Source: Shewanella polaris (GTDB lineage: Bacteria > Pseudomonadota > Gammaproteobacteria > Enterobacterales > Shewanellaceae). From it: a stretch of DNA of 64,000 nucleotides. The notes under the pieces are model-generated. The model worked only from the letters and a program-made list of their open reading frames with translations. It had not been told where the DNA came from and made no database searches. Position 1 is the stretch's first letter, and every line of letters starts with the position of its first letter. A program made the position numbers and the translations under genes. The DNA lies in the NCBI RefSeq assembly GCF_006385555.1, contig NZ_CP041036.1, positions 1,984,001-2,048,000 of the forward strand, written 5' to 3'. This document shows, one piece after another, positions 53,985-64,000 of the stretch.

Positions 53985-55064
53985 TTAAAAACTATATTGA
54001 GCACGCAGTGAAAAGGCATCGTCAGCGTTATATGTTTCTCCATCATCTTCGAGTTTGGCTCTAATATAGTTGACCTTGAACATTAAATTTTCGTTGACCA
54101 GATAGTTAACACCAACGGAGAAGGTTTGAGCCTTACTGTTTTCTTCTATTAAGTTAAACTGGCTCAGTCGCCAAGTAAGTTCCCAGTCGTTATTAGCTTT
54201 AATGCTGCTAAGTTTGCCATTTTTGTAGTGGCGATTTTTACCCGATAGGGGATAGCTCATTTGATAGTAGCCACCTTCATAGTGATGGGTTCCTTTTGTA
54301 GGATCGTCAATATCAGCTTGTATCCACTCCGCCATGGAGACAAAGCCTTGGTACTGCCACATCAATTCAATACCCGCAAGCGATTCATCATCTGCGTTTA
54401 GTCGGGTCCCTTCTAGTAATGAATCACTGGAATAAACCTCTAACGGTTCATTAATCCGAAATTCATCGCCCCCTAAGTGGCGTTCGCTTAACGCGGCACC
54501 AAGATGGATGAAGTTATCATCGGGATCGACTAGAGCCCATGTCAGTCTACCCGTAACCCCATAGTTATCTGCAGAATCCTCGTCTTGAAAATAGCCAATA
54601 TCCCAATTAACGTTACCTTCTTTACCGCTTAGATTAGCTCCAACACTGCGTCCTGGTGCCAGAGCTTCAGTGACCATACTGCGCTCTATCATAAAGGTAT
54701 TACGAGAGCCGGTGAGTTTCTCTAAACCAAAGGGCTCTTTTTGTTTACCCACTGTAATAGTCGCCCAGTCCCAGCCTTGGTATTGAAGATAGGCATCCTT
54801 AATCTCTACAGCATCACCATCAGACAGATCAACTTGAAATTTACTTTTCCAGTTGTCACTAAATTTGATTTTTGTGCTTAATCGCGCCCGACGCACATCT
54901 GATCCGTAATTATCAGATTCATCATCTTCTAGGAAAAGATCTGAGAATTGATCATGATCGAGCATGATATAACCTCCCCATTTGAATTCAGGGTAATCGG
55001 CTGCTGAGCTACTGGATGCCAACAACAATAATGTTGGCGTTAAATAAGATATGAGTTTTTTCAT
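53985..55064 (-). CDS. OprO/OprP-like porin (phosphate-selective type)
   Basis: Outer-membrane beta-barrel of 359 residues. The signal peptide ends near SSSAADY, followed by FKWGGYIMLDHDQF and VRRARLSTKIKFSDNWKSKFQVDLSDGDAVEIKDAYLQY, the pattern of the OprO/P family, and KEPFGLEKLTGSRNTFMIERS. It ends ...LRAQYSF with the C-terminal Phe for insertion. It is the last gene of a three-gene operon with DUF4956 and VTC-domain genes, overlapping the former by four bases. In this setting import of phosphate or polyphosphate is a fair guess. Confidence 0.88.
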   Translation of the reverse strand: MKKLISYLTPTLLLLASSSSAADYPEFKWGGYIMLDHDQFSDLFLEDDESDNYGSDVRRARLSTKIKFSDNWKSKFQVDLSDGDAVEIKDAYLQYQGWDWATITVGKQKEPFGLEKLTGSRNTFMIERSMVTEALAPGRSVGANLSGKEGNVNWDIGYFQDEDSADNYGVTGRLTWALVDPDDNFIHLGAALSERHLGGDEFRINEPLEVYSSDSLLEGTRLNADDESLAGIELMWQYQGFVSMAEWIQADIDDPTKGTHHYEGGYYQMSYPLSGKNRHYKNGKLSSIKANNDWELTWRLSQFNLIEENSKAQTFSVGVNYLVNENLMFKVNYIRAKLEDDGETYNADDAFSLRAQYSF

Positions 55065-55687
55065 GAATGCGTCTCTATTTGACTGTTAGGACTGGAGGCA
55101 TGATCTTTCTGTAGTATATCGGACGGAGTGTAGTGCACGATGAGCTCAGCGGTATCTCTGAGAAAGTCGATATGCTCAATATCCACGCTGGTAACTTGCA
55201 AACCAGTGCGTTCACGCAGATCGGCCAGCAATAGCGCCCTATTTTGAGGCTTAATATTATCGATACGTTCGTATGAGATCCGCTGTATTTGATTGTGCCC
55301 TTGAAAAAAGCGGGTATCGACCAGAAAAGCAATAAAACACAAAGATCCATTGATTGAAAACAACTCTAATATAGGCAGTTTACTAACAGCAGATAACAGT
55401 GCAATGGCAGTAACCAAAAACAGGTAAGTCATCTCTTTTATTGAGATGGTATCCGTGCGATAGCGCAGCATGCCGAACACGGCAAACAAACCAAAAGCAA
55501 ATTCCATCGACATGTCGATGCCGTGTAGTAAGAACGTGATTAAAAATATACCAATGCCAAATAAAACGAAGGATCCAGCCACGTTAGCGTTCTTATTAAT
55601 ACGGTAATAGCAACCGTAGCAAAGTATAACGATGGAAATAAAATTCACTAAAAATAGAACAAGAAAATCATACGTAATTTCGGTCAT
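55061..55687 (-). CDS. DUF4956 membrane protein
   Basis: Inner-membrane protein of 208 residues with five to six hydrophobic segments in the first 135 and a soluble C-terminal part of about 70. The signature GLFAVFGMLRYRTDTISIKEMTYLF is the DUF4956 hallmark. These proteins are regularly next to VTC-domain polyphosphate polymerases in bacteria, as here, and may form the membrane part, in place of the yeast VTC membrane subunits. It starts one base after the VTC gene and overlaps the porin gene. Confidence 0.9.
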   Translation of the reverse strand: MTEITYDFLVLFLVNFISIVILCYGCYYRINKNANVAGSFVLFGIGIFLITFLLHGIDMSMEFAFGLFAVFGMLRYRTDTISIKEMTYLFLVTAIALLSAVSKLPILELFSINGSLCFIAFLVDTRFFQGHNQIQRISYERIDNIKPQNRALLLADLRERTGLQVTSVDIEHIDFLRDTAELIVHYTPSDILQKDHASSPNSQIETHS

Positions 55688-55688
55688 A

Positions 55689-56483
55689 TCAATAACTCCA
55701 TGGCGCAGTAGGATGTTGTTGGTTTAAAGAGGACAGTTTCATCAGAGTGGGTTTAAAACGGTTATATTTAATTCCTTGTTGATAAAGCAGTACACAGCCG
55801 ATGCAGTATTTACTGAAAGAGATAGGGGAAAAATTATGGGTAGGCATCATCTGATAAAATGGAGAATTTTTTGAATATTTTTTTTGCTTTAGCTCGACGA
55901 TAAAAAAACCATCGAGTTCAATGCGCTCCACTCCATTAGAAGACTGATACCAGAGGTTATAGTCTATAGTAAGGCGTTCAGGGATGGCCTCATTGGCTAG
56001 TGCAATACGTTCATAGCCACCTTGTTGAGACACGCTTAAATCGTCAAAATTGACACCAAGATGTTTACGAATAAATGATTGGTTATCATCATCGCACTGG
56101 ATACTTTCGTCGCAACGGACACGGCTTTTGATGGTTCTTTTATGATTGTTTTTAAATTTTACTTCTAGGAATTGGGTATCCGTGTCTAAATAAGTACGCT
56201 TACGAACTTTAAAGCGGTTTAACTTGCCATTGTGGTGATCTTTGTAGAAATTCATCTCCTGTGTATCAAAGTATTGGTTGAAGTAGTTTGCCGTACGTTT
56301 GCCATTGATTTGTAAGACGCTGTAATGAGAGCGAGCCGCTTTGAGTAGATCAGGTAAAACATCTAGCGGTAAGATAAATTTAGAATCTACTCTATCTTGC
56401 AAATTAGCATGATGTAGATCGGCAAGACTGTGTCCTTCATATGTCGTCAGCAATTGCTCGATGGTATGGTTATCAGTTTTCAT
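55689..56483 (-). CDS. VTC-domain polyphosphate polymerase-like protein
   Basis: Cytoplasmic protein of 264 residues with the triphosphate-tunnel fold of yeast Vtc4, which makes polyphosphate from ATP. Visible tunnel strands are RVDSKFILP, NYFNQYFDTQEMNFYKDH, FKVRKRTYLDTDTQFLEVKFK, TIKSRVRCDE, LTIDYNLWYQ and IELDGFFIVELKQKK; together they line the tunnel with Lys/Arg and place Glu residues for metal. It is the first gene of the operon with DUF4956 and porin genes. No separate Ppk gene is in the window. Polymerase activity is inferred by family. Confidence 0.88.
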   Translation of the reverse strand: MKTDNHTIEQLLTTYEGHSLADLHHANLQDRVDSKFILPLDVLPDLLKAARSHYSVLQINGKRTANYFNQYFDTQEMNFYKDHHNGKLNRFKVRKRTYLDTDTQFLEVKFKNNHKRTIKSRVRCDESIQCDDDNQSFIRKHLGVNFDDLSVSQQGGYERIALANEAIPERLTIDYNLWYQSSNGVERIELDGFFIVELKQKKYSKNSPFYQMMPTHNFSPISFSKYCIGCVLLYQQGIKYNRFKPTLMKLSSLNQQHPTAPWSY

Positions 56484-57575
56484 TAGTGTTGTTTACCTGT
56501 AACCGTGTTGGATTTTTTATGCTGAGGTTTGTCCGGTCGCTAGCGCATTTAATACGGTATTGATCATCACATACGGGAAAATTTTGTAGAGTGTTGTTAT
56601 CTTGTCTATTAAACATTTACCTTCCTTATGTAGTTAAGCTTTTACCCGATAGCTTGATAAGAAACCTTTATCTAATTTAAATCATACAAATAGATTGTGC
56701 AGAAAGGATGAGGGAAGTGTGGAGATAGCTTGTAGAAAGCAATAAATGATAGTGCTATCGCATTCTTTGTTGTGCTTAGTCATTGTAAGAATGGAACTCG
56801 ATTGACTGTGTGAGAGTAAATACTTAACTTATATTGATTTTTTGACTCGCGAGCTAAATTTAAACGTGAGCAGTATAATCAATCGAGGTAAAATGGCGCT
56901 AAAGAGAAATTGAGTTACTGTTATTACTCGACATTGGCAACAAAAACACCAATAAAATTAAACAGTTAACAACGTCAGTATCGTAAGCATAGACAGCCCG
57001 ATTTTGTGGGTTACTTTAGTATCACAACTTTCTGCTATATTGATTGCAATCAGCATTTTTGATTCCAGTAACAGCTATTATAACCGTTATATATTGATGA
57101 GCCTGTTTGATTATTTTTCGTTGCTTTACCATTTTTATACAACAATTATAATACAGTTTATGAAAGCATTAGTTTGACTTTTTATTAATTTAAAAATCAA
57201 TACGGGGTCATTTATTGACTGTTCTATTTATAATCCTTAAAGGTCTTTTTAATAATGGAATACATCCTAGACTTATATTTAAATAAGATATTTTAATCAA
57301 TTAGCTACTCAGCTTTAATGTTAACAATGTAAATAAAACTATTTTCATTTTTATTTACATTATTAATAACATGGTTAATACACCGTAATACTAATGAAAA
57401 ATGAAACATATCTCACAGATTTTTATTTAATGATAGGTTAGTCGGGTGCAAGGTAGTGATCACGTATTTAGAAAATATTAGATCTAAGTCGATATCGATA
57501 ATCGCTACAATTGAAGTTGTTATATAACGTATTAAAATAGATTAATCATTAAATTATATACATGGCAGTACTAAT
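56484..57575. other. 1.1-kb regulatory spacer before the TonB-ECF locus
   Basis: Very AT-rich spacer with no coding frame I can support. It holds the promoter of the minus-strand VTC operon and of the TonB receptor. Recognisable parts are the long inverted repeat at 57326-57361 and the palindrome GTTATATAAC at 57529-57538. I did not find a cobalamin or TPP riboswitch by eye. Confidence 0.5.
57326..57361. promoter_or_regulatory. Inverted repeat upstream of TonB-ECF locus
   Basis: AATGTAAATAAAA and its exact complement TTTTATTTACATT, 13 bp each, are separated by 10 bases; weaker symmetry continues outside (GTTAAC / AATAAC). It is about 215 bp before the receptor start. It could be an operator or an mRNA hairpin. 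Confidence 0.5.
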
Positions 57576-59528
57576 ATGATCTCTAGGAAAACTACTTTTA
57601 AACTTTCAACTGTAACCTTGGCTATTGGACTTTGTTTTACAGTACAGGCTGATGAAATTAGCCGTGATCCTTTACTTAATATCAATGAAGTCATTGTTGT
57701 TCATGGTGACGGTGGTCAACCCAGAGATATGGCTACGACTCATTGGAGCATCAATGATGAAGAGATCCGAGCTTCAGGAGCCCAAACGTTAGAACAAGTT
57801 CTAAAGAATGTGCCCGGGGTTTACATTCGTGTGGGCGGAGATGGTACACCAAGAGTTGATATCCGAGGTTTTAAGAGTCGTCATGTCACATTACTTGTTA
57901 ATGGTGTGCCAATGAGCAGTGCCGGTGACGGGCAATTTAATCCTAGCGTTATTCCTACCAGCCAAATTGCATCAATAGAAGTATCTGTTGGACCAACTTC
58001 GGTACTTTATGGACCAAGTGGTGCTGGTGGTGTTATCAATATTATTACAAAGCAGGGTAGCACAGCTCCATCTTTGTCAGGTCGCCTAGAATCGGGTGAA
58101 AACGACACCTTTAATGGTGATATTAGTGCCGCTGGTTCAGGTGATGATTGGCAGGGGTTAATGAGTGTAAGTCGACAACAAACTGATGCTTACCCAATGT
58201 CAGATGATTTTGAAGCTACAGAATATCAAGACGATAACTTGCGTGAAAATTCAGATAAAGAAGTTACCAATGTTTATGCTCAAGGAAGTTATTGGTTATC
58301 TGACAAAACCCAACTTATTACCAATATGGCATTTCGTAATGGCGATTGGGGCAAACCGTCTCGCGATGGTACAGGTACTGGAAGTGTGAAGTTTGAACGT
58401 GTTGATGATTTTGATGAACATACTTTACAGTTAGGTCTAGCTCATGAATTTAACGATACTTTTATTATTCGTGGCTTTGGTTATCACAATCAAACCGATA
58501 TGTTAGAAGCGTCTTACAAAGATGAAACCTACCTAGATTTAAAAGAAACCCAAGATAGTAGTTCCGTAGTACAAGGTATTAATTTACAGCTGATTACTGA
58601 TTTGAAAAATGTCGGTTTATTGACAACGTCTGTTATTGCGGAAAAACAAAGCTGGGAATCAACGATTGCGATTGATGATCCAGACAACATAGATGATTCT
58701 GCTTGGTTATATACCGCAGCTGCAGAGTATCAATATCATTCTGAACTGCAATACGGTTTTACATTAGGTGCAGCTTTTCATTCCCTAGATAATTCAGACA
58801 GTACTGACGATAACTATTCAGCTATGGCGTCGAGTTATTGGCAAGTTGCCAAAGATTCACGTTTAAGTTTAAGTGTTGCACGTAAAGTCCGTTTCCCATC
58901 GATGGAAAACTTGTATTCATTATCCGCTGGTAATAGTGATTTAGAAGCAGAAGAGTCTAAGCACGTAGAGCTTGGCTTAGAGCAGAATTTACCTGCAGAT
59001 ACTGATTTTTCATTATATGGCTATTACACCGATGCTAAAAATTATATCGCCAAAGATAACGATGATTTTTATCAAAACATGGATCGTTATAAATTTAAAG
59101 GGATTGATTTTCAAATTAATAACAATAGCATTGATAAGTTAGATTTACGTTTTTCATATAGCTATCTTGATTCGGAGGAAATGGACGATGATGATACGTT
59201 AGATTCATTACAGTACCGTCCACGTCACCAACTGCGTTGGCAAGTAAACTATGAGCTTCCATTTGAACTTAAGATGAATATAAATGTAGAGCGTATATTA
59301 GATCAAGTATATGCCGCCAAGGTGAAAATTGATGGTAAAACTCAATATCAACAGCAATCACTTGATAATTATACATTAGTTGATGTGAATTTTGCTTACC
59401 CTCTCATTAATGAGAAGTTAGAGCTATACATACGTTCAACCAACTTGTTAGATGAAAATTATTATCAGAGTGAGTCTTTACCTCAAGCGGGACGTCAGGT
59501 CTTTGTTGGCGTGAACTGGCAGATATAA
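57576..59528 (+). CDS. TonB-dependent receptor of the ECF-linked locus
   Basis: Outer-membrane receptor of 650 residues: signal peptide ending near FTVQA, a TonB-box-like stretch INEVIVVHGDGG, plug domain with LEQVLKNVPGVYIRVGGDGTPRVDIRGF in effect and PTSVLYGPSGAGGVINIITK, then the barrel (ESKHVELGLEQNL) and terminal VFVGVNWQI. Size and plug resemble cobalamin/siderophore and metal receptors more than sugar receptors. The ATPase gene of an ECF transporter begins one base after its stop codon, so it clearly serves that transporter. Substrate is unknown. Confidence 0.92.
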   Translation: MISRKTTFKLSTVTLAIGLCFTVQADEISRDPLLNINEVIVVHGDGGQPRDMATTHWSINDEEIRASGAQTLEQVLKNVPGVYIRVGGDGTPRVDIRGFKSRHVTLLVNGVPMSSAGDGQFNPSVIPTSQIASIEVSVGPTSVLYGPSGAGGVINIITKQGSTAPSLSGRLESGENDTFNGDISAAGSGDDWQGLMSVSRQQTDAYPMSDDFEATEYQDDNLRENSDKEVTNVYAQGSYWLSDKTQLITNMAFRNGDWGKPSRDGTGTGSVKFERVDDFDEHTLQLGLAHEFNDTFIIRGFGYHNQTDMLEASYKDETYLDLKETQDSSSVVQGINLQLITDLKNVGLLTTSVIAEKQSWESTIAIDDPDNIDDSAWLYTAAAEYQYHSELQYGFTLGAAFHSLDNSDSTDDNYSAMASSYWQVAKDSRLSLSVARKVRFPSMENLYSLSAGNSDLEAEESKHVELGLEQNLPADTDFSLYGYYTDAKNYIAKDNDDFYQNMDRYKFKGIDFQINNNSIDKLDLRFSYSYLDSEEMDDDDTLDSLQYRPRHQLRWQVNYELPFELKMNINVERILDQVYAAKVKIDGKTQYQQQSLDNYTLVDVNFAYPLINEKLELYIRSTNLLDENYYQSESLPQAGRQVFVGVNWQI

Positions 59529-59529
59529 G

Positions 59530-60885
59530 ATTAAATTACTTGAGCTAAAGAATGTTAGCGTTAGCTATGGCAGCCATTTACCAAAGGTATTGCAAAATAT
59601 CAACTTGGTGATTAGTCGTGGTCAATGCCATTGCGTGAGCGGTCCAACAGGATCGGGTAAGTCTAGTTTATTAAATTTGCTTGCAGGTGTGCTCAATCAT
59701 CCACATGACGGTGACATTTGGTCTAATCCTCAACTTCTTGCGGGTCTTGTGACTCAAGACCCGCAAACCCAACTATTACGCAATACTGTGGGTGCCGAAG
59801 TGGCATTTACTCTGGAAAATATTGGTGTACCTGCGAAGGACATGTTACCGAAAGTTCAATTAGCGTTAAGACGTGTGGGTTTACATATGCGCCTTGATAC
59901 TAAAGTGAACACTCTTTCGCTTGGTCAAAAATATCGTCTTATAATGGCTTCTCAGTTGGTATGCGAACCTAATTTACTCTTGCTAGATGAGCCTTGGGCA
60001 CAATTAGACGACAAGGGGGTAAGTGAGCTTTTGGCTGTACTGCACAATCTTATCCAAGATGGTATGGCTCTTGTGTTGGTAGAGCACAACCCTCATGCCT
60101 TTGCTGACATTATTCAATATTATTGGCAGTTTGACGACGGGGATTTATCCGAAGGTATTTATAGCATCAACAGTGATCTTAGACCGCAACTCGGTTCGCA
60201 ACAAAAAAGTTGTAGAAAGGAAGAGGAGGAGTTTATAGATGATGTGGTTATTAGTGCTAAAGCGTTTGAATTTAGATTTGATGGCAATCCTAAGTTGTTT
60301 ACCTGTCCACAAGATTTAACATTATATGCAGGAGAAATTGTTAGCTTAATTGGGGATAATGGCTCGGGGAAAACAAGTTTATTGAGGGCATTAGCTGGCG
60401 TACTCAGTTTAAAGAAACGGTTGCCTTTAACTGTCTTAGAACGGACTCCAAAACTTGGGGTTTATGGGGCTGAACTGGGTTTTTTAATGCAAAGACCGAG
60501 TCGACAATTATTTGAAACTAATGTGTTAGCTGAAATGCAATTTAGCTTAAAGCGTTTTGATCTTCCCCAAATTCGTGCGACGGAAATGCTGGAGGAGCTT
60601 GAATTAACTACATTATCTAATTTGTCACCACATACATTGTCATACGGTCAACAGCATATCATTGCCCTTGCATCGTTAGCATGTTTACAACCTAAGTTAT
60701 TGTTATTAGACGATCCTCTGGCGGGAATGGATAAGTTTTACTACAGCAAAGTGTGGTACTTGCTTGAACGTTTGCAATCTCAGGGCTGTACTATTTTACT
60801 CAGTAGTCATAGAAGCATTAAGCATCATGCTATTTCTCGGCAATTTGGCCTGCGTGAAGGTCTGTTACAAGAGGAGAGTATTTAA
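59530..60885 (+). CDS. Duplicated ECF transporter ATPase (EcfA-EcfA' fusion), probable ATT start
   Basis: Two ABC nucleotide-binding domains in one chain of about 451 residues. Domain 1: IKLLELKNVSVSYG with A-loop Tyr, Walker A GPTGSGKSS (about 38-46), signature LSLGQ (about 130), Walker B LLLLDEP. Domain 2: Walker A GDNGSGKTS (about 275), signature LSYGQ, Walker B LLLLDDP with Asp in place of the catalytic Glu. Homology begins right after the receptor stop, yet the only possible start in frame there is ATT at 59530; the first TTG (59590) would remove the first strand and A-loop. A TGA at 59512 rules out an earlier start. Translation is probably coupled to the receptor. Confidence 0.88.
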   Translation: MKLLELKNVSVSYGSHLPKVLQNINLVISRGQCHCVSGPTGSGKSSLLNLLAGVLNHPHDGDIWSNPQLLAGLVTQDPQTQLLRNTVGAEVAFTLENIGVPAKDMLPKVQLALRRVGLHMRLDTKVNTLSLGQKYRLIMASQLVCEPNLLLLDEPWAQLDDKGVSELLAVLHNLIQDGMALVLVEHNPHAFADIIQYYWQFDDGDLSEGIYSINSDLRPQLGSQQKSCRKEEEEFIDDVVISAKAFEFRFDGNPKLFTCPQDLTLYAGEIVSLIGDNGSGKTSLLRALAGVLSLKKRLPLTVLERTPKLGVYGAELGFLMQRPSRQLFETNVLAEMQFSLKRFDLPQIRATEMLEELELTTLSNLSPHTLSYGQQHIIALASLACLQPKLLLLDDPLAGMDKFYYSKVWYLLERLQSQGCTILLSSHRSIKHHAISRQFGLREGLLQEESI

Positions 60886-60898
60886 ATGGGAAATAAAA

Positions 60899-61585
60899 AT
60901 GAAGGCTAGAGGCCGATTGGGTGGTATCCAATGGTTTAATACATGGGGTCCAGAACGTCGGGAAACCGTGAGTTGTGCATTGTCATTACTATTGGTGTGC
61001 GTGCTATCTGCTTGTGCTTTTGTACTACCTACATCTTTATTGTTATTTCTGGTCGGGATCAATGGACTATTAGTCATTCATGGCTTGTTATGTCGCGGTA
61101 ATATATGGGGCGTGGTTAAACTTGCTTTAATCCAACTCATCATCACTTTGGGTTTGTATTTAATGCTCTATGGTATTGGATCATTAATTGATGGTTCTGT
61201 GGTCGTGGTACGCATTGTATTGGCAACCATTCCCAGTTGGTGGCTTTGTATTACTGTTGCACCAGAGCGCATTGGCGAAGTGCTGAGTTCATTTTTACCC
61301 AAAAAATGGGCCTTTGTGGTCGCAGCCTCCTTAAGCTTACTGCCTTATATGTTAGATGAAATCCGCGAGATATATCAGATCCAGTGTCTACGAGGTGCGC
61401 GTATCACACCCAAGGCACTGCGTAACCCCAAAAATTGGTCTGAGCTAGTTTATTGTGTGCTCTTTCCTGCATTGATCCTGTTATTAAAGTTATCACACCA
61501 AATGGCGGTAGCGGCACACAGTCGTCATTTTGGTCAACATCCACGACCAACACATTGGCATTCACCTAGAGAAAACGATGAATAA
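60899..61585 (+). CDS. ECF transporter transmembrane component (EcfT)
   Basis: Inner-membrane scaffold that joins the two ATPase domains to the substrate-binding subunit. The 228 residues show hydrophobic segments at about 27-60, 68-82, 88-112 and 200-215, and the cytoplasmic coupling helix QIQCLRGARITPKALRNPK with the Arg-Gly motif typical of EcfT. The start ATG at 60899 is 14 bases after the ATPase gene; the longer frame begins inside it and lacks support. It overlaps the next gene by eight bases (ATGAATAA). Confidence 0.85.
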   Translation: MKARGRLGGIQWFNTWGPERRETVSCALSLLLVCVLSACAFVLPTSLLLFLVGINGLLVIHGLLCRGNIWGVVKLALIQLIITLGLYLMLYGIGSLIDGSVVVVRIVLATIPSWWLCITVAPERIGEVLSSFLPKKWAFVVAASLSLLPYMLDEIREIYQIQCLRGARITPKALRNPKNWSELVYCVLFPALILLLKLSHQMAVAAHSRHFGQHPRPTHWHSPRENDE

Positions 61586-62117
61586 TAAACGTTCTTTGAG
61601 TCTCCAAGACTCTCTATTTGTGGGCTTTTGTGCCACATTGCTGGTTGCATTAACTGGGTTATTAAGGCTGAATATTGGCTTGTCAGGACATACGATGTTT
61701 TTAACCAGTTTTTTCTATTTAATTTGTTACGGGGTGTTAGGTCGTTTCGGAAGTATTACGGCCTGTGGTGCTATTGCTGGGTTTGTCGCTATGGCTCTAG
61801 GTGTTGGTAAAGGAGGACCTTTGATCCTGTTGAAGTTTATATTACCCGCCATCAGCATGGATTTAGTTGCGCTACTTTTGCCATTAAGTATGAACATTCA
61901 TTGGCGCTGTGTGATTCTAGGAATTTCAGGCTGTATTGCCTGGGCTGGGAAAGTGGCACTGGCTAACATGCTTGCTGGAATGGCACTGGATGTAATGTTC
62001 ATTCAATGGGGTATCAGTATATTGCAAGGCGGTTTCTTTGCCATATTGGGAGCATTATTGGTGCCTCCGGTACTCGCTAGGCTGAAAGCTCATGATTTAC
62101 TAAAAACAGATAGATAA
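61578..62117 (+). CDS. ECF transporter S component-like membrane protein
   Basis: Inner-membrane protein of 179 residues with about six hydrophobic segments, the right size for an S component, the part that binds the substrate. Notable stretches are LNIGLSGHTMFLTSFFYL in the first extracytoplasmic loop and AMALGVGKGGPLILLKFILP. It begins inside the end of the EcfT gene, so the two are translationally coupled. I cannot match it with any known vitamin-specific S component (BioY, ThiT, RibU and others); the substrate is unknown. Confidence 0.8.
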   Translation: MNNKRSLSLQDSLFVGFCATLLVALTGLLRLNIGLSGHTMFLTSFFYLICYGVLGRFGSITACGAIAGFVAMALGVGKGGPLILLKFILPAISMDLVALLLPLSMNIHWRCVILGISGCIAWAGKVALANMLAGMALDVMFIQWGISILQGGFFAILGALLVPPVLARLKAHDLLKTDR

Positions 62118-62251
62118 CGTTAATTTTGGACAAAGAACTGTTTGATATCAAATCAGTGAAACATTCTGATTTCGGCTCCTAAATTTCATCTTTTAGCCCG
62201 AATTAAGAAGAAAAAATACTATAGAGTTATTAACAAAATTCAGGATATAAA

Positions 62252-62989
62252 ATGAAAAACTGGCTGATTTGTATCGACGATACCGATGATATAGGCACTA
62301 AAGGCACTGGTGAAATAGCCGAAGAAATAGCACAAATACTTGCTGAGGTTTCAGGCGGGAAAGTATCTTTTATTACTCGTCATCAGTTGTTTGTGCACCC
62401 TGATATTCCCTATACATCCCACAACAGTGCTATGTGTTTTCATTTGTGTTCACCATTACCACAAGATGAAATTCTTAAGCTTGCAGTCGCTCATTTAGTC
62501 GCTGAATCTGCACCTGCAGCAGACCCTGGGATTGCCATTCTTGACACTGGCTCCGTATTTGATGCATCTGCGCTGATAGACTTTGGCCGTAAAGCTAAAT
62601 CAGAAGTTATCACTAAAGCCACGGCTTATGCATTGGCCGAGCAACAGAACATAAGTTTGACGGAACATGGCGGAACGGGCCAGGGTATTATTGGAGCTTT
62701 AGCCGGATTAGGTTTACGTTTGTTGGGCAATGATGGACGCGTTAAAGGAAAAATTAAACTCGGGCAGTCTGACGAGGTTCCACATGAATTAAGCGTGGCC
62801 GATATTCTTGCTAAAACAGGCCTTGATGCAGTTATGAGCACCGATGAGTATCAACTCAAGCTTGATGAGACGGTCCAACTTAAAGGCAAAGTGAAGGCGG
62901 TTTATCTTAATCATAAGTTCGTATTGTTAGTTAATCGAGACGCTAATGTGTGGTGCAATGCCAGTAAACAAGTTTTACAGCATTATTGA
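62252..62989 (+). CDS. TiaS-like protein with IDDTDD motif (stand-alone kinase-like domain)
   Basis: Cytoplasmic protein of 245 residues beginning MKNWLICIDDTDDIGTKGTGEIAEE. The (I)DDTD motif and following Thr/Gly residues match the N-terminal ATP-using domain of archaeal TiaS, which attaches agmatine to C34 of tRNA-Ile2. The C-terminal part VQLKGKVKAVYLNHKFVLLVNRD resembles a small OB fold. TiaS has about 420 residues with a zinc ribbon at the end; here the ribbon is missing. Bacteria use TilS for this tRNA, so another substrate, perhaps related to the transported compound, is likely. It follows the S component by 134 bases on the same strand. Confidence 0.75.
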   Translation: MKNWLICIDDTDDIGTKGTGEIAEEIAQILAEVSGGKVSFITRHQLFVHPDIPYTSHNSAMCFHLCSPLPQDEILKLAVAHLVAESAPAADPGIAILDTGSVFDASALIDFGRKAKSEVITKATAYALAEQQNISLTEHGGTGQGIIGALAGLGLRLLGNDGRVKGKIKLGQSDEVPHELSVADILAKTGLDAVMSTDEYQLKLDETVQLKGKVKAVYLNHKFVLLVNRDANVWCNASKQVLQHY

Positions 62990-63021
62990 ACAACTATCCT
63001 GACACTCGGGGAGGTATAAAA

Positions 63022-63261
63022 ATGGACCCAATATCAGTTCGAAAGGAATTTGAGCAAAATGGAACCCAATGGATTTTTCGGACGGGATTGGGACAATATG
63101 GCAAGGCTAGAGCAGTGGCACTGCAATGTCATTTTTTTACTGCTGATGATGAAGATGAACAAATTGATGATGAACTGCGTTCTTGTTATAACTGTCAATA
63201 TCGCCGATGGACAATGACTAGCTTTGAATGTGTTGCATTAAATAAAGGTATCATTAAATAA
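63022..63261 (+). CDS. Small cysteine protein, possible zinc-binding partner
   Basis: Unrecognised protein of 79 residues with four cysteines: C36, C55, C58 and C70 (QCHFF, SCYNCQYRRW, FEC), a plausible single zinc or cluster site, and an acidic stretch DDEDEQIDDE before it. The ATG at 63022 follows a strong GGGGAGG; an in-frame TTG at 62986 overlaps the TiaS-like stop but lacks a ribosome site. It is 32 bases after the TiaS-like gene and must be co-transcribed. It could supply the zinc ribbon missing there; that is only an idea. Confidence 0.75.
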   Translation: MDPISVRKEFEQNGTQWIFRTGLGQYGKARAVALQCHFFTADDEDEQIDDELRSCYNCQYRRWTMTSFECVALNKGIIK

Positions 63262-63756
63262 GATAAATGCTGCATTCAATACCATTTGCTTTATTTCAGT
63301 CACCACTATTTTTTTCATTTATTTAAACCACTAATAGAACCCAAATGGCTATTTTTGTAAAACCGAAATAGCCATTTTGATTCAATTGTGTTTGTCTGGA
63401 ATCTCGATTATTTCTTGTTTGTTTATTAAATAGACTAATATTATCTATCAATTTAGTATCTTAACAGTATACATCTGTATCTGAGTTCATTAAGCTTACC
63501 GACCAAGTTTTTGATGCTCCGTTAAACATATCAGCAAAAAATGATGGGTTGGAATGGTAATTTCTCTATTATCGCAGAGCTTTAAAATAAAATTCCAATT
63601 AAATCATTATGAACTAAGCTTGGTTGACAATACATCTGATCTGGTTTTTTTCGAAGTTCTTATTTAATAAATACAACACATTAGGCTACCAATGTCGTTT
63701 AGCCAAGTTTGGTAACATATATTGATAAAATATCATCACATACAAAGGTTTTTACA
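63262..63756. other. Spacer between TonB-ECF locus and chemoreceptor
   Basis: About 495 AT-rich bases with the terminator at 63343-63382 and otherwise nothing recognised apart from the expected chemoreceptor promoter. Confidence 0.45.
63343..63382 (+). terminator. Terminator of the TonB-ECF locus
   Basis: AAATGGCTATTT / AAATAGCCATTT, a perfect 12-bp stem with an 11-base loop, about 80 bases past the last gene of the run. Confidence 0.75.
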
Positions 63757-64000
63757 ATGAGAATAATAAGTCGTTTGTACTTTGGGTTTGCAACTCTACT
63801 GGTAATTATGGTTGGTATAACCTTGTTTGGTTTGGTGAAAATTAGTATCGCAGATAACAATTTAACTAAATTATCAGAGCAATCTGCTGTTGAGCAGCGC
63901 CAAGCGATTAATTTTAGAGGTAGTGTACATGATAGAGCTATTTCAATTCGAGATTCTGTTTTAGTTAATAATAAAGGTTTATCGAAGAAGCATCAGGACG
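63757..64000 (+). CDS. Methyl-accepting chemotaxis protein, N-terminal part
   Basis: Only the first 81 residues are in the window: MRIISRLYFGFATLLVIMVGITLFGLVKI, a membrane helix, followed by a polar helical periplasmic stretch (NLTKLSEQSAVEQRQAINFRGSVHDRAISIRD) typical of four-helix-bundle (4HB) chemoreceptor sensors. Signalling domains lie beyond the right edge, so the call rests on this N-terminal pattern. Confidence 0.8.
   Translation, partial: MRIISRLYFGFATLLVIMVGITLFGLVKISIADNNLTKLSEQSAVEQRQAINFRGSVHDRAISIRDSVLVNNKGLSKKHQD

Follow-up and report, generated by a model that had tools for sequence, protein, structure and literature searches.

What does a six-gene operon of Shewanella polaris bring into the cell, and for which enzymes? 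According to the open reading frame listing and family profile scans, positions 57576-63261 of the 64,000-nucleotide stretch of DNA analysed here (the window) hold one operon of six + strand genes, which encode a TonB-dependent outer-membrane receptor (TBDR), two fused energy-coupling factor (ECF) ATPases (EcfAA), EcfT, the S component EcfS, a protein resembling the archaeal tRNA enzyme TiaS (the TiaS-like protein) and a small cysteine-containing protein (the Cys protein; Table 1). This anatomy agrees with the original prediction, made from the letters alone, of six same-strand genes with these parts. The operon is a real, conserved uptake-plus-processing unit, and its membership of a formate/tungsten/molybdenum regulon in relatives of this strain is well supported, being the firmest part of the interpretation. 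Because its operator is shared in relatives with formate dehydrogenase and tungstate/molybdate uptake genes, the operon probably helps to make tungsten or molybdenum enzymes. More specifically, it would be an import-and-trap system for a compound serving such enzymes, formate dehydrogenases above all, a reading to which a probability of about 0.42 can be given.

The operator was recognized by comparing the 420 bases before the receptor gene in the window and 20 relatives (L055, which has no receptor, was left out). A palindrome with the core GACA-N3-TGTC, new here, lies 140-170 bp before the operon in 19/20 relatives (exception, L053), and the same core occurs in 38/6300 dinucleotide shuffles. 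A second conserved element, roughly AGTCGATCTnGGTT, is located ~100 bp before the receptor in the relatives.

Thirty-one distinct exact sites were read, which are all the sites of five complete genomes (G000, G015, G036, G039 and G042), and 28 of them are located at formate dehydrogenase, hydrogenase, tupA, modA or TonB-receptor loci, the operon included. Ten belong to the formate dehydrogenase cluster, five between fdhD and a DUF3305 gene and five inside the frame of a ferredoxin-like gene. Sites are also found upstream of a second formate dehydrogenase with a TGA within its frame (four sites), the TBDR-ECF-TiaS-like operon (four), modA-type binding-protein genes (three), [NiFe] or [FeFe] hydrogenase genes (three), another TBDR (two), tupA (one) and a TBDR-FecB-FecCD set (one), and three lie at unrelated loci. 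In L129, L133, L134 and L137, a formate dehydrogenase with the operator upstream is split by the in-frame TGA into frames of 193 and 794 residues, and this TGA is probably a selenocysteine codon. In twelve genomes, 11 of 12 dehydrogenase loci carry an exact site between fdhD and its divergent neighbour (exception, L122), and a protein with HTH_17 and PBP_like domains is encoded beside fdhD in 10 of 12 (not in L103 or L119). The PBP_like domain of this protein aligns with the C-terminal region of a MoeA fusion model, and the protein is a candidate reader of the operator. That the operon has its operator in common, in relatives, with tupA, modA and the genes of formate dehydrogenases and hydrogenases points to tungsten/molybdenum-formate metabolism rather than to nucleobases, one of the two kinds of compound first suggested.

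A link to tungstate uptake is also seen in gene distribution. TupA (E <= 1e-60) is found in 107/117 genomes of the genus; all 76 genomes with the TiaS-like gene have this tungstate-binding protein, and all 10 without TupA lack the TiaS-like gene (hypergeometric 1.3e-5, kinship ignored). Both genes are on one contig in 61 genomes, 10.4-19.2 kb apart in 55 of these. In a class sample, TupA at E <= 1e-25, with no match over the family's own cut-off, occurs in 94/369 genomes, including 4/4 with the TiaS-like gene (P 0.004); without the S. polaris genome, the count is 3/3 (P 0.016), two of the three being from one family. In the accessible parts of earlier studies, SO4718 is named as a regulator for tungstate transport in a 2009 table (PMC2667191), and SO_4719 and SO_4720 are named TupA and TupB in a 2018 paper (PMC5826389). 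In strain MR-1, the operon may be incomplete, because the portions available of two other papers place SO_4711 as a phosphodiesterase (PMC10017123) and SO_4712 as an ABC ATPase (PMC2535785).

EcfS, the TiaS-like protein and the Cys protein are encoded side by side in 51/51 Shewanellaceae loci: 38/38 in a first neighbour set (the best 30 of the genus matches plus 8 loci from named genomes; 31 distinct genomes, that of S. polaris included) and 13/13 in a second set of hand-picked further loci, weak matches included, from 11 further genomes. The set is more than a chance assembly, since it is conserved across the family. The neighbour table proposed with the original prediction thus yields conserved co-occurrence, and the last two genes, rather than lying mostly away from ECF genes, which was named as a finding that would count against it, stand beside them in all Shewanellaceae loci examined. 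The usual Shewanella order is an HD-GYP gene, the operon, menF, yhhQ and then a sensor kinase gene; in L055, also from Shewanella, the receptor is missing and menF directly precedes the ATPase gene. The TiaS-like gene is present in 76/117 genus genomes and has no match in 41/117; in three genomes (G054, G097 and G098) it is matched in pieces. Among named genomes, its relatives number 8, every one in Shewanella. Shewanella decolorationis S12 (L008) is one carrier of the operon. It occurs in 11/295 genomes of an order sample, all Shewanellaceae, in 4/369 of the class sample, the S. polaris genome counted, and in 4/398 of a phylum sample, one of them outside Shewanellaceae.

Outside Shewanellaceae, eight loci were compared: L050 and L073 (one genus), L052 (from their family), L067 and L074 (one genus), L051, L075 (a haloarchaeal plasmid) and L076 (a Pimelobacter simplex plasmid). 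A related TonB receptor adjoins the TiaS-like gene in 5/8 (L050, L052, L067, L073 and L074), and an EcfS-like protein in these and L076 (6/8). EcfT was without a match in all eight loci, and EcfA matches are a tupA-linked ATPase (L050 and L073) or the ATPase of a FecB-type importer (L075). The proposed import and processing system is a conserved unit within Shewanellaceae; of the outside loci, 5/8 keep the receptor and an S-like protein. In one other gammaproteobacterial genus, the TiaS-like gene is accompanied by genes for a TonB receptor, a membrane protein resembling EcfS and a Cys-protein relative; such a relative, retaining all four cysteines, is encoded after the TiaS-like gene in L067 and L074. 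In L051, the TiaS-like gene adjoins a regulator with a PBP_like domain. L076 is the 3.8-kb plasmid pC-N39, with three annotated genes including the TiaS-like gene and a divergent EcfS-like gene.

The components point to how such a system might work. EcfT exceeds the cut-off of PF02361 (42.7 bits; cut-off, 25), EcfAA has the two ATPase stretches of an ECF pair, with ECF_ATPase_2 as the best NCBIfam match under its cut-off, and the predicted EcfS model has the ECF S-component fold, as expected for an ECF transporter. EcfS has no Pfam or NCBIfam family up to E 0.5, apart from one chance bacteriocin row, so that the original prediction is not undone by an S component of a known vitamin family. The TiaS-like protein best matches methanogenesis marker protein 11 (TIGR03280; 1.8e-11) far under the cut-off (43.7 bits; cut-off, 255.8) and only at model positions 133-282 of 292; this family is also the best in 6/6 relatives scanned, in near tie with TiaS in L075. 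With TiaS, the agmatidine synthetase of archaeal tRNA(Ile2), the protein appears to have in common no more than the kinase domain that uses ATP (TCKD): about 160 of the 420 TiaS residues match, and family scans gave no zinc ribbon, as had been predicted, and no further TiaS domain. The Cys protein has the core C-x2-F ... DDEDE ... SCxNC ... RRW ... C, and its four cysteines, already recognized in the original prediction, are kept in 26/26 aligned Shewanellaceae proteins and both relatives found elsewhere.

In the import-and-trap reading, TonB-energised transport by the receptor would bring a scarce compound across the outer membrane, EcfS would bind it, and EcfT and EcfAA would drive its ATP-powered passage through the inner membrane. 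In the cytoplasm, the TiaS-like protein might then use ATP to phosphorylate or otherwise activate the compound, with the Cys protein as a putative helper; given that TCKD is of kinase type, phosphorylation is the favoured reaction. An organic, cofactor-like compound is the most likely cargo, because the S component most resembles vitamin S components; a pterin-type compound is a guess, and the S-component fold tips the balance slightly towards it and away from the metal itself. The conserved operon, the operator shared in relatives, the tupABC linkage, the fold of the EcfS model and the TCKD homology are computed, and from them we infer which substrate is imported, what reaction the TiaS-like protein catalyses, how the Cys protein takes part and which regulator reads the operator.

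Several points weigh against this reading. A 14-genome scan for GGACAWWNTGTCY gave 114 strand-matches, in which palindromes are counted twice, versus 49 for a reversed control pattern. Five of the ten dehydrogenase-cluster sites fall inside the listed ferredoxin-like frame, not upstream of it. Of the 31 sites, three lie at unrelated loci and three at genes for hydrogenases, enzymes that depend on neither tungsten nor molybdenum, so that the regulon may concern formate and hydrogen rather than metal. The synteny and co-occurrence counts ignore kinship. A profile built only from Shewanella EcfS does not find the outside EcfS-like proteins; what links these candidate counterparts to it is limited to gene position, protein size and a GH motif. 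No known salvage enzyme is present within the operon. The copy in S. polaris itself departs from its relatives: the GACA-N3-TGTC operator found upstream in relatives is absent before the window operon, the whole 64-kb window is devoid of exact sites, and the operon is far from tupA.

What holds for the relatives may thus not be valid for the window strain. The usual operon site is empty in its genome, with the HD-GYP gene and menF adjacent (L105, C1:4512001-4528000, 1155-1446), and the sensor kinase gene is followed by a response regulator gene, tupABC, mobA, mobB-moeA and moaA; the window copy sits at a new chromosomal place. An HTH_17-PBP_like gene (L104, 9827-10732) carries an in-frame TAA, and no other such gene was found in the stretches of this genome read (L103, L105 and the window). 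The six frames are intact and therefore the operon is not called dead. Near the interrupted gene lies an operator-bearing TBDR-FecB-FecCD-ATPase set (L104, 2467-7903), whose ATPase carries a fused NTPase_1 domain, i.e., an importer coupled to a nucleotide-using domain.

This second operator-bearing importer is consistent with a possible, if doubtful, alternative, in which the operon imports the metal itself as a tungstate or molybdate chelate (a metallophore complex), and ATP use by the TiaS-like and Cys proteins releases or stores the metal. Metal complexes are the usual cargo of TonB receptors, the operator is common to the operon, tupA and modA-type genes, and in L075 the TiaS-like gene and a gene for a FecB-type binding protein lie back to back; the resemblance of EcfS to vitamin S components argues for an organic compound instead. 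A dedicated salvage route, in which TonB and ECF components import all or a fragment of the tungsten/molybdenum pterin cofactor and the TiaS-type kinase domain re-phosphorylates it, is unlikely. Were it true, methanogenesis marker 11 and its archaeal relatives might act similarly, and an orphan methanogen family would gain a function.

Import of a corrinoid by a BtuB-like receptor together with an S component, on the model of solitary BtuM systems (PMC6072759, in the part available), is quite improbable. BtuB-BtuM likewise combines a TonB receptor with an S component, and the B12 receptor is the best NCBIfam match of the receptors of the window, L067 and L052; however, the window receptor scores 172.5 bits against a cut-off of 599.7 for the curated BtuB model, the operon has ECF ATPases and a T component, scans of the window stretch and of 13 loci gave no cobalamin riboswitch, and the regulon is one of formate, tungsten and molybdenum.

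YkoEDC is an ECF importer for thiamine precursors, and YkoD is also a fused double ATPase. The nearest solved fold of EcfS, 5edl, is presumably YkoE, and a kinase domain of cytosine type would fit an aminopyrimidine substrate. A YkoEDC-type importer of thiamine or hydroxymethylpyrimidine with a new kinase is nevertheless very unlikely: EcfS matches no S-component family, that of YkoE included, up to E 0.5, the operon adds an outer-membrane receptor and a kinase-like partner, the regulon is unrelated, and no TPP riboswitch was found, window positions 56400-64000 having no Rfam match and five operon-bearing loci no riboswitch of any kind. Modification of a tRNA base with the imported compound, suggested by the TCKD homology to TiaS, is hardly credible, as the TiaS FLD domain (PF08489) has no match anywhere in the genome, the TiaS-like protein has no other TiaS domain, and a gene unmatched in 41/117 genus genomes would be odd for codon reading.

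Import of a cofactor-like compound for tungsten/molybdenum enzymes would set the operon beside the TupABC/ModA-formate dehydrogenase regulon of Shewanella, with which it shares operator and neighbourhood in relatives; TupABC and ModA use a periplasmic oxyanion-binding protein, whereas the operon uses a TonB/ECF route. If this is true, an import route is added to TupABC and ModABC in the biology of formate dehydrogenases, the TiaS-type kinase domain acquires a function unconnected with tRNA, and the orphan methanogen marker family gains a hypothesis testable in an easy bacterium. Consistent with the claim that no characterised system has this make-up, literature searches gave no paper on the six-gene system among the matches listed, and no ECF system or TonB receptor for tungsten/molybdenum enzymes among the titles listed. 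MoeA1, MobB and FdhD belong to a described cofactor pathway specific for tungsten, with no such importer in the accessible part (PMC13197769), and a cobalt ECF transporter is the subject of another paper, likewise available in part (PMC13119186).

Table 1. Features of the operon and its flanks in the window.
Feature	Positions	Strand	Evidence
Upstream region, without GACA-N3-TGTC operator	57155..57575	+	comparison with relatives
TBDR, 650 residues, BtuB-like	57576..59528	+	Plug 1.5e-25
EcfAA, two fused ECF-type ATPases, 451 residues	59530..60885	+	two ABC_tran stretches
EcfT, CbiQ family, 228 residues	60899..61585	+	PF02361 (CbiQ) 6.6e-11
EcfS, S component, 179 residues, six predicted helices	61578..62117	+	nearest solved fold 5edl
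TiaS-like protein, 245 residues, putative TCKD (kinase-type) domain and C-terminal stretch	62252..62989	+	TiaS_TCKD 4.3e-4, below Pfam cut-off
Cys protein, 79 residues, four conserved Cys	63022..63261	+	alignment of relatives
Hairpin after Cys gene, possible terminator	63341..63379	+	-14.7 kcal/mol fold

The intergenic gaps are, in gene order, 1, 13, -8, 134 and 32 bases, and four of the five junctions are tight or overlapping, as first described. The terminator said to close the run is the weakest point of the anatomy: the hairpin folds, but is absent from the terminator-like matches of a pattern scan. At the aligned start of EcfAA, the window has ATT, versus ATG in 4/5 relatives inspected and GTGATG in the fifth (L006). 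Upstream of the operon, genes for a VTC-domain protein, a DUF4956 protein and a porin form a tight run on the - strand (window positions 53985-56483).
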